DNA of 64,000 nt, taken from Anaerococcus marasmi. Lineage in GTDB: Bacteria > Bacillota > Clostridia > Tissierellales > Peptoniphilaceae. Of the stretch, positions 38,999 through 43,853 are shown one piece after another (position 1 is the first letter of the stretch; each line of letters begins with the position of its first letter). Under the pieces are notes generated by a model. It ran no database searches. It saw only the letters and a program-made list of their open reading frames with translations, and had not been told where the DNA came from. Made by a program: the position numbers and the translations under genes. The stretch spans positions 1,105,501 to 1,169,500 of the forward strand of contig NZ_OLMF01000004.1 of the NCBI RefSeq assembly GCF_900290195.1. The letters run 5' to 3'.

Positions 38999-39021
38999 AT
39001 TTACCTTCCTAATATTGTAAT

Positions 39022-39270
39022 AAAAAAAGTCCCCAGCTTCCCGAAGGAAACTAAGGACGAAAATTCGCGTTACCACCTTAATTCATATACGTTCACACGC
39101 ATAGGCACTCATCAAGTACAGACATACTCTACTTCTGTAACGGGAAGACCCGTATAGCTCTAATATCGAACTATCCCATCAAAGGCCATCTTCATCTAAA
39201 TCAACATCCACCCCTTTCACCAAACGGGGCTCTCTGTAGAATATCTTTCTAGACTACTCTTCTTTTCAAA
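39022..39270 (-). ncRNA. T-box leader of the metNIQQ operon (methionine specifier)
   Basis: On the minus strand it has a stem I region (ACAGAGAGCC...GGTGAAAGGGG), the GAAG-AUG specifier context (AUG at 39187-39189), the T-box AAGGTGGTAACGCGA (about 39065-39079) with UGGU for tRNA-Met ACCA pairing, and a terminator of two GTCC/GGAC-type arms (about 39029-39058) followed by seven Ts. Its sequence is closely similar to the metY leader, suggesting duplication. Confidence 0.95.
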
Positions 39271-39403
39271 TGGTGTCAAAACTTTATTTATTTGATAATC
39301 CTATAATACCATGGTATTTTTCCCTTGTCAAATAATTTAAAATAATTTGTATAAGTATAAATATTATTTCCTAAGTTTAGCCTTAAAGCGTCAAATAGGC
39401 CTA

Positions 39404-39431
39404 TTGAAATAATGATAAATCCTTGTATAAT
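39404..39431 (+). promoter_or_regulatory. Promoter of the antisense antitoxin RNA
   Basis: TTGAAA (39404-39409), a 16-bp spacer and TATAAT (39426-39431). Predicted start about 39438. No downstream rightward ORF uses it; the transcript would run into the hairpin at 39472-39502. Confidence 0.75.
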
Positions 39432-39437
39432 AAAAGT

Positions 39438-39505
39438 GAACAAGGGAATATAAGTTCAACTTAAACACAAAAAAGCAGGAGTGGTAGCTCCTGCTTTTTA
39501 TTTTG
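39438..39505 (+). ncRNA. Candidate RNA II-type antitoxin RNA of an Fst/par-like locus
   Basis: A predicted transcript of about 65-70 nt from the promoter at 39404 to the shared terminator. Its 5' part (39442-39469) repeats two blocks found over the toxin start region: AAGGGAATA (9 nt) and CAACTTAAACAC (12 nt). Because the toxin is read from the other strand, these blocks are complementary to the toxin mRNA around its ribosome site and start codon. Convergent genes, direct repeats and one bidirectional terminator is the arrangement of pAD1 RNA I/RNA II. Confidence 0.65.
39472..39505. terminator. Bidirectional terminator shared by toxin and antitoxin RNAs
   Basis: A perfect inverted repeat AAAAGCAGGAG / CTCCTGCTTTT with a six-base loop has T runs on both strands. 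Confidence 0.85.
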
Positions 39506-39507
39506 GG

Positions 39508-39603
39508 CTAATTATCATCTCTTCTACTATCTAGCCACTTGCAAATATAGTAGCTTACTATATCTGCCGTAATAGTTAAGATAAGGGAATACAACTTTTC
39601 CAA
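39508..39603 (-). CDS. Fst-like type I toxin peptide (31 residues)
   Basis: A 31-codon ORF starting with TTG, preceded by a near-perfect AGGAGGTG (39610-39617) at six bases. The peptide is one hydrophobic helix (LYSLILTITADIVSYYIC) with a charged C terminus (KWLDSRRDDN). This is the Fst/Ldr-type layout, including the WLD-plus-charges ending. Its mRNA would begin near 39644 (TATAAT at 39651-39656 on the minus strand) with a 7-bp hairpin (TGTTACC/GATAACA) in the 5' UTR. Fst-like peptides damage the membrane when overproduced. Not detected by length-based gene finding. Confidence 0.7.
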   Translation of the reverse strand: MEKLYSLILTITADIVSYYICKWLDSRRDDN

Positions 39604-39763
39604 CTTAAACACCTCCTAACTGTTACCAGTATAGGGATGATAACAATTTAATTATAGCAGATTTTTATAATTTTTAGGGAAAATTTACCCTTAAAAGATA
39701 GATAAATTTTCATTTTAGGCCGATAAGTATTATAATATAAATGAATTTATAAAGGGAGGTAAT

Positions 39764-42373: not shown

Positions 42374-43853
42374 GGCTCTTTGTCAAATCGTGTTGGTAAA
42401 TAATAATCAACCAAATTCTTAATCAGGGATAGAAATTTCTATCCCTGAATTTTTAACTAGCTAATAAATTTCTTGTGATAAATATTCTTGTTCTAAAATT
42501 AGCAAAATTCCTGTATCCAAAAGCTATCCTCTTTAAAACCTTAATAAAATTATTAACCCCTTCAATTGGTCCATTAGAATAATCATAAATAAATGAGTTC
42601 TTGATGAAATCTAGGTAATAATAACAAGTATCTATTGATGTTCTCATCCTATCACTAACTTTATCCTTGAAGTGATTTAAATGAAATTTAAACAATTCAA
42701 AATCCTTTTTCTCAATATCCTCTCTTAAGCATTGGTAACAGTCATAAGTATTCTTTAAAGTCTTATCAACATCAAGACTGATATCGACAATATCTTCATC
42801 AGAAACAAATTTACTAGGGAAGTGAACACGTTTAAAAAAATGAATAGGATCAAGGAGTTTGTATGGCTTTAAAAAATGTTTCCAATATTTCTTAAGTCTT
42901 TTGTATTTAATATTGCTTGTAGAATACTCCTTCATCGTGTCAATCCTAGTATGGTTAAAAGAATTTGTAAATAGTTTTACGATATGGAACCTATCAATAA
43001 TGATTTCTGCATTAACAAACAGTTCTTTAATGAGTGATATATAGGGACTATACATATCAATACATACAGTCTTAACCTTATCTCTAACATACCTAGGGTA
43101 GCATAAGAAATATTTCTTTAGGGAATATAGCTGTCTATTCTCTACAATATCAATTACCTTGTGATTATCTGAATTTAGATATATGAAGCTCATAGCTCCT
43201 TTAGCATCTTTGGTTGATTTGAACTCATCAAATGATAGGTGTTTTGGTAGATAAGAAAAGTCTACATTGAATTCATTATCATACTTAGCCATAAATCTAG
43301 CAACTGTAGTTGTAGATATGTAATTATCAGCAGATATATCTTTCATAGATAGCTTTTTTGTTAAACTTGAAAGAACATGTCTTTTAACCTGATTAGAAAT
43401 ATTACAATACTTATCGACTATATTAGATTCAAGTAAGAAATATTTATTGCACGATTTACAGAACATCTTCTGCTTCTTCAAGTCAATTAAAACAGGATGA
43501 TCACCTGCTCTGGAACATCTTACAGTAGATGATTTAAAGCCGTATTTAATTAAGTTATGGTTAGAGCCACAATGAAGGCAAACTTGATCAGAATATTCTA
43601 ATTTAGCTTTTAGAATTGTATATGTTACACCTTTAATGACTTTGTGGTGTATTCCATCAGAAAAATTAAGATTTTCATCTTTGATATTTAGTAAATTTGT
43701 AATAAAATAATTGTTAGACATATTTAATCTCCTTTTAAGTTGTGGTTAATTTAATTATAGGGTAAATGATTAAATATGTCTTCTTTTTTTTACAAAAAAA
43801 TCGTACTGACAGAAGTACCATTTACTTCTACCAACACGATTTATTATAGACCC
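42374..43853 (-). mobile_element. ISL3-family insertion sequence, complete
   Basis: About 1480 bp with one transposase gene and imperfect terminal inverted repeats of about 25 bp. The left end reads GGCTCTTTGTCAAATCG onward, the right end (reverse complement) GGGTCTATAATAAATCG onward, and both continue GTGTTGGTA. Near-identical 8-bp flanks CTTTTAAG (42366-42373) and CTTTTAGG (43854-43861) look like a target duplication with one change. Removing the element rebuilds a perfect CCTAAAAGC / GCTTTTAGG terminator stem between hydF and hydE. Confidence 0.85.
42453..43721 (-). CDS. ISL3-family transposase
   Basis: A 422-residue DDE transposase, full length. An N-terminal zinc-finger region (CLHCGS ... 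CSRAGDHPVLIDLKKQKMFCKSC) precedes a helix-turn-helix segment. The catalytic core has LSFDEFKSTKDAKGAMSFIYLN (first Asp) and VKTVCIDMYSPYISLIKELF (second Asp), followed by IIDRFHIVKLF. The C-terminal SNGPIEGVNNFIKVLKRIAFGYRNFANFRTRI holds the catalytic Glu. All key parts are present, so the element may be active. Codon use is more AT-rich than in the neighbours. Confidence 0.93.
   Translation of the reverse strand: MSNNYFITNLLNIKDENLNFSDGIHHKVIKGVTYTILKAKLEYSDQVCLHCGSNHNLIKYGFKSSTVRCSRAGDHPVLIDLKKQKMFCKSCNKYFLLESNIVDKYCNISNQVKRHVLSSLTKKLSMKDISADNYISTTTVARFMAKYDNEFNVDFSYLPKHLSFDEFKSTKDAKGAMSFIYLNSDNHKVIDIVENRQLYSLKKYFLCYPRYVRDKVKTVCIDMYSPYISLIKELFVNAEIIIDRFHIVKLFTNSFNHTRIDTMKEYSTSNIKYKRLKKYWKHFLKPYKLLDPIHFFKRVHFPSKFVSDEDIVDISLDVDKTLKNTYDCYQCLREDIEKKDFELFKFHLNHFKDKVSDRMRTSIDTCYYYLDFIKNSFIYDYSNGPIEGVNNFIKVLKRIAFGYRNFANFRTRIFITRNLLAS

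Follow-up and report, generated by a model that had tools for sequence, protein, structure and literature searches.

The short interval upstream of hydG on the chromosome of Anaerococcus marasmi raises the question of whether a hydrophobic reading frame of 31 residues and the promoter that faces it constitute a toxin-antitoxin pair. The window analyzed here is a stretch of 64,000 nucleotides from contig C2 of a 2.13-Mb genome, and the locus lies in it between a methionine ABC transporter gene with a T-box leader and hydG, gene names that we take from the translations. The best explanation, to which a probability of about 0.88 is assigned with the mechanism included, is a type I toxin-antitoxin locus on the chromosome that belongs to the Fst/Ldr superfamily, is built like par(pAD1) and comes from a branch common in anaerobic Firmicutes. 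A first-pass annotation had read the locus as Fst/par-like, and this interpretation is supported by the comparisons below and appears largely right. The following features were placed in the window:

39404 to 39431, plus strand: antisense RNA promoter, TTGAAA-16-TATAAT, 11 of 12 consensus bases
39438 to 39505, plus strand: predicted antisense RNA (RNA II, antitoxin), about 68 nt, from promoter and terminator; folded
39442 to 39468, plus strand: antisense pairing arm with repeat blocks 39442-39450 and 39457-39468; cognate duplex -32.0 kcal/mol
39470 to 39499, both strands: intrinsic terminator with a 12-bp stem, common to both RNAs, from sequence
39470 to 39644, minus strand: predicted toxin mRNA (RNA I), 175 nt, from promoter and terminator; folded
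39508 to 39603, minus strand: toxin ORF, 31 aa, TTG start, stop included; homologues, pooled pN/pS 0.47
39583 to 39612, minus strand: target of the antisense arm (Shine-Dalgarno end, start codon, to codon 7), by duplex computation
39610 to 39617, minus strand: Shine-Dalgarno AGGAGGTG, 6 nt 5' of the start codon, from sequence
39616 to 39634, minus strand: leader hairpin (5'-SL candidate) with a GUAA loop, overlapping the first Shine-Dalgarno bases, by folding
39651 to 39659, minus strand: toxin promoter, extended -10 TGC-TATAAT with a weak -35, from sequence

Each element of the RNA I/RNA II layout of pAD1 par that the first-pass annotation had proposed was located: the TTG-started frame, whose relatives are conserved, its near-perfect ribosome site, the hairpin in the 5' untranslated region, the strong promoter on the opposite strand, and an antisense RNA of about 65-70 nt. 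The bidirectional terminator, which it had drawn at 39472-39505, is present, but the hairpin itself falls slightly differently; both repeat blocks complementary to the toxin start are likewise present (AAGGGAATA at 39442-39450 and 39583-39591; CAACTTAAACAC at 39457-39468 and 39601-39612), but together they give a single, almost unbroken duplex of 26 pairs over the start. The toxin promoter had gone unnamed and complements the antisense promoter; its -35 has four mismatches, that of the antisense promoter being better, and the toxin transcript is predicted to begin at 39644, 7 nt past the -10. Promoter-like sites numbered 11 in the surrounding 2 kb, against 5.2 ± 2.2 in shuffled sequences. The T-box leader (RF00230, 115 bits; 39050-39278, minus strand) stands just beyond the antisense promoter, before the methionine ABC transporter genes. 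A 422-aa ORF adjoining hydF (42453-43721, minus strand) resembles what is presumably an ISL3-type transposase, and a tRNA/tmRNA scan gave no match.

A family of related loci was assembled from 94 tblastn rows, of which eight weak ones (E of 0.38 or more) were omitted and 11 of the other 86 were dropped by hand, leaving 75 loci in 24 genomes; terminators were available for 70 of these, 65 entered the duplex test, 57 the helix test and 55 the mRNA alignment A4. A Shine-Dalgarno score of at least 5 was observed in 72 of the 75, and a script search placed a terminator-like hairpin 3' of the stop in 70 of 75. The toxin -10 is an exact TATAAT in 59 of 70 loci and is preceded by TGN in 39 of 70, while the best antisense -10 falls 35-45 nt beyond the terminator in 60 of 70 and is exact in 56 of 70.

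The peptide encoded by the window, MEKLYSLILTITADIVSYYICKWLDSRRDDN (31 aa), has a mean hydropathy of 1.53 over residues 4-21 and a tryptophan at position 23; tryptophan is shared by at least 90% of 61 family members. Its TTG start is supported by an ATG or GTG at the corresponding position in three relatives from the hydG site. The tblastn search and the codon-position check that the first-pass annotation had proposed both bore it out. Relatives were found in the genome itself and, at E<=1, in 39 of 101 genomes with this one included, and differences between members fell on codon positions 1, 2 and 3 in the numbers 258, 133 and 318, the pooled pN/pS being 0.47 across 52 length-matched pairs with 75-98.5% identity, which are not independent of one another. 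At E<=10 tblastn gave seven matches in the own genome, one of which (C2:1336598) was dropped as unrelated; by profile search the genome holds eight places of the family. Family profile A1, which comprises 61 of 71 distinct peptides and was itself built from the tblastn hits, was positive at E<=0.001 in 27 of 130 family-level genomes. Twenty-two of these are among the 31 of the genus and five lie outside it, where two copies have internal stops (G149 and G157) and one sits in a long frame (G165). Tandem arrays of two to three family matches spaced about 300-750 bp apart were seen in several genomes (G000:C2 at 1783555, 1784301 and 1785036; also L022, L023, L025, L043 and L061).

Beyond these genomes, 397 plasmid records matched at E<=10, many of them weakly, and peptides of the YICKWLD type or a close variant are carried on plasmids of Streptococcus, Aerococcus, Enterococcus faecium, Mogibacterium, Mediterraneibacter and Ligilactobacillus. 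Among the matches listed (20 and 40), no annotated feature underlies the relatives, the gene table being incomplete. A motif scan of viral contigs returned seven relatives among 58 stretches. These are L226-L232, seven viral contigs, and a further relative lies near the integrase of the satellite phage Javan542 of Streptococcus (L093). A YICKWLD scan of genome contigs gave at least 591 stretches, at least 469 of which were confirmed by tblastn at E<=1e-3 relative to the candidates, and the matches listed include Lachnospiraceae, Ruminococcaceae, Oscillospiraceae, Veillonella, Selenomonas, an Erysipelotrichaceae MAG and Anaerococcus. The best 80 of these relatives, of which there are at least 469, formed a wider locus set; of its 77 scorable members 75 have a Shine-Dalgarno and 62 a terminator. 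The first-pass annotation had placed the locus in an anaerobe outside the usual hosts; the host is indeed an Anaerococcus chromosome, but it is less unusual than supposed because the branch is widespread in Clostridia. According to a review (PMC6563280), one large search found known type I toxin homologues to be lacking in most clostridial species, C. bolteae and C. asparagiforme being the sole carriers of Fst-like sequences, with which the relatives recovered here from one motif scan contrast. The CKWLD motif was absent from the biological literature searched, and no paper there joined Fst, type I toxin and Lachnospiraceae, both weak evidence, with most subscription papers lying outside that search; a single paper mentions type I toxin together with Anaerococcus, each term one time.

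The relationship of this family to Fst was assessed by comparing profiles with ten Fst references, of which two are published sequences and eight come from records that carry the annotation Fst family toxin. HHalign of A1 against these gave a probability of 95.5 (E 1.4e-8), A1 against ten relatives from plasmid and phage records gave 99.5 (E 2.9e-23), and the plasmid and phage relatives against the Fst references gave 94.7; alignment A3 excludes the plasmid peptide of L092. The signature of the Fst/Ldr superfamily is a tryptophan between the hydrophobic stretch and the charged tail (PMC7472228, in part), and W23 of the window peptide stands there. A P/D/S/TxxxG(C) membrane motif is not strictly defining because it is present only in the majority of Fst/Ldr toxins, as described in the accessible parts of the same source. 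The window peptide does not carry it and has TxxxD at the aligned place. Among 69 distinct family peptides the strict motif occurs in 21, always as SxxxG, and in a tryptophan-anchored alignment the PxxxG of Fst falls on this SxxxG, on AxxxN (10) or on SxxxN (7).

Curated models do not recover the family. Scanned against Pfam and NCBIfam, the window peptide matched neither Fst nor any other toxin family, and Fst_toxin (PF13955) was not among the 19 Pfam families listed for the 61 members; at its cut-off it was found in 0 of 31 genus genomes but also in 0 of 14 control genomes, and the comparison is thus without a positive control. NF033608 matched four of the 61 members weakly (best E 0.0023, below the cut-off) and left the window peptide unmatched, and weak matches were also obtained with NF047374, the model of Clostridioides difficile type I toxins (eight of 61, best 0.011), and with Ldr_toxin (two of 61, best 0.037). 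Membership in PF13955 or NF033608 was consequently rejected, the scores falling short of the curated cut-offs. Judged by its profiles, the window peptide family is a separate branch of Fst, undetected at cut-off by the Fst models of Pfam and NCBIfam. A link to solved structures was also rejected, a search of A1 against PDB sequences finding no Fst structure (best E 2.1, glycophorin), as was a link to the C. difficile toxins, for which there were weak model scores and no C. difficile phage among the phage matches, and which is left as a lead. The relative on a Ligilactobacillus plasmid, L098, scores 2.4e-5 with NF047374 over residues 5-22, under the cut-off, a possible link between the two clostridial toxin groups.

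The antisense arm of the window would pair with the start region of its own mRNA at -32.0 kcal/mol. Across 65 loci the computed duplexes averaged -31.0 ± 5.6 kcal/mol for cognate arms, -14.0 ± 4.7 for non-cognate arms and -12.8 for shuffled versions of the own arm, and the cognate arm was the best of the 65 in 50. Within single genomes it was the best for 59 of 61 mRNAs (18 genomes), and in the wider set (77 usable of 80) cognate duplexes averaged -37.1 against -20.2, with the cognate arm best in 54. By these computed energies, the antisense RNAs are specific for their own mRNA.

The mRNA is predicted to be closed by a helix between its 5' end and its last codons, with two further helices inside the reading frame:

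39636 to 39644, minus strand: closing helix (upstream helix), 5' strand GTTATCATC, by pairing and covariation
39511 to 39519, minus strand: closing helix, 3' strand GATGATAAT, the last three toxin codons (DDN), by pairing and covariation
39573 to 39578, minus strand: coding-region helix 2, 5' strand, by folding, covariation and a recoding test
39524 to 39529, minus strand: coding-region helix 2, 3' strand, by the same evidence
39561 to 39567, minus strand: coding-region helix 3, 5' strand, by the same evidence
39541 to 39547, minus strand: coding-region helix 3, 3' strand, by the same evidence

The closing helix has nine of nine standard pairs in the window. In 57 loci the first nine mRNA bases form a mean of 7.21 of nine Watson-Crick pairs with the last nine before the stop, against 5.97 ± 0.12 with shuffled partners (maximum 6.39 of 2000), and for the 34 distinct combinations the values are 6.41 and 5.22 (0 of 5000 shuffles). 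Matched changes are seen in the strand pairs GTTATCATC/GATGATAAC, GTTACTATC/GATAGTAAC, GTTATCGCA/TGCGATAAC and GTTATCACG/CGTGATAAC. In the 55 mRNAs of A4 the helix reaches 97.5% pairing, and 43 cells are double-changed against 11.7 ± 3.9 in shuffles (0 of 500), while its pair types did not exceed shuffles (201 of 500). The closing helix and the two coding-region helices together are 93.6% paired against 78.9 in shuffles, which leave sequence relatedness in place (0 of 500), and versions slid along the alignment reached 56.4% at most. Under 300 synonymous resamplings, in a test of helices that had first been predicted on the same alignment, helices 2 and 3 are 91.2% paired against 66.9 ± 1.4% (maximum 71.2) and the closing helix 97.5 against 91.3 ± 1.0. 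Fold stability of ORF plus leader exceeded that of synonymous versions in 62 of 68 Anaerococcus-family loci, 72 of 77 wider loci and 7 of 10 reference loci (mean z -1.32, -1.65 and -0.89, respectively), and in several loci with a moved stop the RNA element is kept, across or after the stop, though the surrounding reading frame differs. On this comparative evidence, structure inside the toxin ORF is maintained by codon choice beyond what the protein explains.

Energy folding gave the closing helix of the window a mean probability of 0.28 in the full-length mRNA and 0.91 without the terminator; over the 55 mRNAs the means are 0.70 and 0.75, with values above 0.5 in 42 and 44, and near zero in a few, for example G004. 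Most of ten reference par-type loci have a matching helix at or just past the stop, where the mRNA start pairs, as with GGCAACTTGC/GCAAGTTGTC in L105 and L106; among the helices listed for L103 and L109 no such 5'-end helix was present. A helix of at least 6 bp was found in 44 of 66 wider loci, against 19% of non-cognate pairs, its 3' strand lying within the ORF in 23, across the stop in 10 and after it in 11. The closing helix would accordingly correspond to the par "upstream helix" (5'-UH), as described in the accessible parts of PMC7472228, moved into the gene. Two further features of par were also considered. Sequestration of the Shine-Dalgarno is unsupported as a conserved property, the site being not clearly less accessible than in shuffles (unpaired 0.26 against 0.30), even though the leader hairpin is present by folding. 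A U-turn (YUNR), absent from the window's sense terminator loop, is found in 15 of 70 such loops and is thus mostly absent as a family feature; in the accessible parts of PMC7472228 it is described as not universal in toxin RNAs.

At the hydG site itself, 8 of 26 genus genomes carry a member of the peptide family in the 700 bp upstream of hydG, each time divergent from that gene; one copy (G016) is split, and one of the 26 genomes (G026) is cut at a contig end and has no upstream sequence. The arrangement of methionine ABC transporter gene, locus and hydG is shared by four species. This shared arrangement would fit the strongest competing account, that the peptide is not a poison but a small membrane protein acting in stress, transport or membrane tuning, its dose set by the antisense RNA. 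Some purifying selection on the peptide, as given by pN/pS, and the description of chromosomal Fst homologue function as obscure in the accessible parts of PMC7472228 would also fit such a role, but its patchy presence at the site, its absence from G005 and G010 between recognizable flanks (those of G010 more diverged), and the multi-copy, plasmid and viral-contig occurrence fit selfish or addiction biology better, so a physiological role is judged unlikely.

Less probable still is a decaying remnant of a former addiction module that is no longer under constraint. Altered copies do occur in relatives, among them toxin genes with an inserted repeat and the split copy at hydG in G016, but in the window all parts are present and matched, from promoters, Shine-Dalgarno, ORF and terminator to the duplex and the complete closing helix, and the RNA helices are kept by codon choice family-wide. 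That the locus is a leader or regulator of hydG and not a stand-alone pair is highly improbable: 160 bp separate the starts of the toxin ORF and hydG, and family members recur there, yet the locus is transcribed away from hydG with its own terminator, most family members are elsewhere, and genomes without the locus at this site still have hydG. A chance ORF with chance repeats, to which the lack of a toxin family in the single-peptide Pfam and NCBIfam scans might point, is already refuted by conservation, with antisense specificity and covariation also against it, and has a negligible probability.

Returning to the toxin-antitoxin pair, close relatives at this site indicate how its specificity varies. 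HydG is 98.3-98.9% identical to that of the window in G004 and G006 and 94.5% in G021. Compared with G004, the window is identical at 271 of 271 positions of the T-box region (39020-39290), at 46 of 46 of the toxin promoter and at 9 of 9 of the 5' strand of the closing helix; the leader hairpin with the Shine-Dalgarno matches at 30 of 32 and the terminator at 36 of 38. The ORF (39 of 63 plus 27 of 39), the antisense arm (17 of 32) and the antisense promoter (14 of 37) have diverged, and the stretch beyond that promoter (39291-39400) matches at 84 of 110. Promoter, leader and terminator are therefore kept while the two segments that set specificity differ together. Duplex computation sorts the site into three classes, the window, G004/G006 and G021, which bind their own targets at -32.0, -23.9/-24.0 and -32.6 kcal/mol and those of the other classes at -9.2 to -17.5. 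The divergence may stem from gene conversion from paralogues or from fast substitution.

For the mechanism, the following sequence is proposed, with the block of initiation, the protected and longer-lived mRNA, toxin production on antisense shortfall and action at the membrane taken by analogy from par as described in the accessible parts of PMC7472228. A weak extended -10 promoter would yield the 175-nt mRNA for a single-pass membrane peptide, and the convergent promoter, with its better -35, the antisense RNA of about 68 nt ending at the same terminator. The antisense RNA would pair with two parts of the mRNA, the terminator and the segment made up of the Shine-Dalgarno end, start codon and codons 2-7, so that ribosomes could not start. 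The 5'-3' helix and the two helices internal to the ORF would close the mRNA and, as in par, may protect its 5' end and slow translation. When the antisense supply falls, the longer-lived mRNA would be translated and the peptide would disturb membrane and growth.

More tentatively, and at less than even odds, the toxin gene may serve a dual purpose, in which its codons build the closed three-helix mRNA and thereby fix part of the peptide (the D-N tail and an A..C pair), while both segments of antisense specificity, the ORF start and the antisense arm, turn over together at a fixed site as promoter, leader and terminator stay. If so, these loci would form a rapidly evolving repertoire of mutually orthogonal pairs, shaped by rivalry among the copies or with plasmids and phages that enter the cell, and each cell would keep pairs that others cannot neutralize. 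The toxin family itself is known; what appears to be new is the covarying closing helix in the ORF, the two ORF helices and the specific pairs that differ at the hydG site. The aligned family supplies covariation evidence for a par-type upstream helix and hydG an orthologous site at which antitoxin specificity differs between close relatives, and the role and multiplication of chromosomal Fst loci become testable by cross-neutralization.

Compared with par of Enterococcus faecalis pAD1 (PMC7472228, in part), the locus has the same convergent promoters and shared bidirectional terminator, as seen in sequence, the direct repeats over the toxin start (DRa/DRb), the leader hairpin, the membrane peptide of about 30 residues with a charged tail, and a helix holding the extreme 5' end of the mRNA, for which energy support in the window alone is mixed. 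It differs in that the 3' strand of this helix lies in the last toxin codons and not at or after the stop, in having TxxxD in place of PxxxG and no U-turn, and in being chromosomal and present at eight places in one genome. Fst-Sm/srSm of Streptococcus mutans is alike by description, being chromosomal and convergent with an antisense RNA of about 70 nt and direct repeats over the start codon (PMC3543317, in part). The YICKWLD-type loci of plasmids and Clostridia share peptide branch and anatomy, but their closing-helix 3' strand is variably placed about the stop. A long-distance 5'-3' interaction in the toxin mRNA is also described for aapA/IsoA of Helicobacter and for hok/sok, and structure embedded in the ORF for aapA3, but that interaction directly occludes the Shine-Dalgarno and is released by 3' trimming (PMC6733600, in part). 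The C. difficile type I toxins are likewise small hydrophobic clostridial toxins with a convergent antisense RNA, but those first described have 50-53 residues (PMC6563280, in part) and their model scores weakly with the window family.

A repeat was also encountered in some toxin genes of the family. A looser form of its pattern recurs at 24 sites across 13 of 31 genomes; the repeat family is therefore general, and these variants elsewhere rule it out as toxin-specific. The 30-base pattern has five places in the 31 genomes, three in family toxin genes, one in the split hydG copy of G016 and one, at G006:C2:1564842, beside a weak family match. In L057, L074, L082 and L210, which represent four species, the repeat, about 60 bases long, occupies the same position in the ORF, just past the codons of the WLD region. 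The terminator persists downstream, and at least three of the four have an element resembling the closing helix before it.
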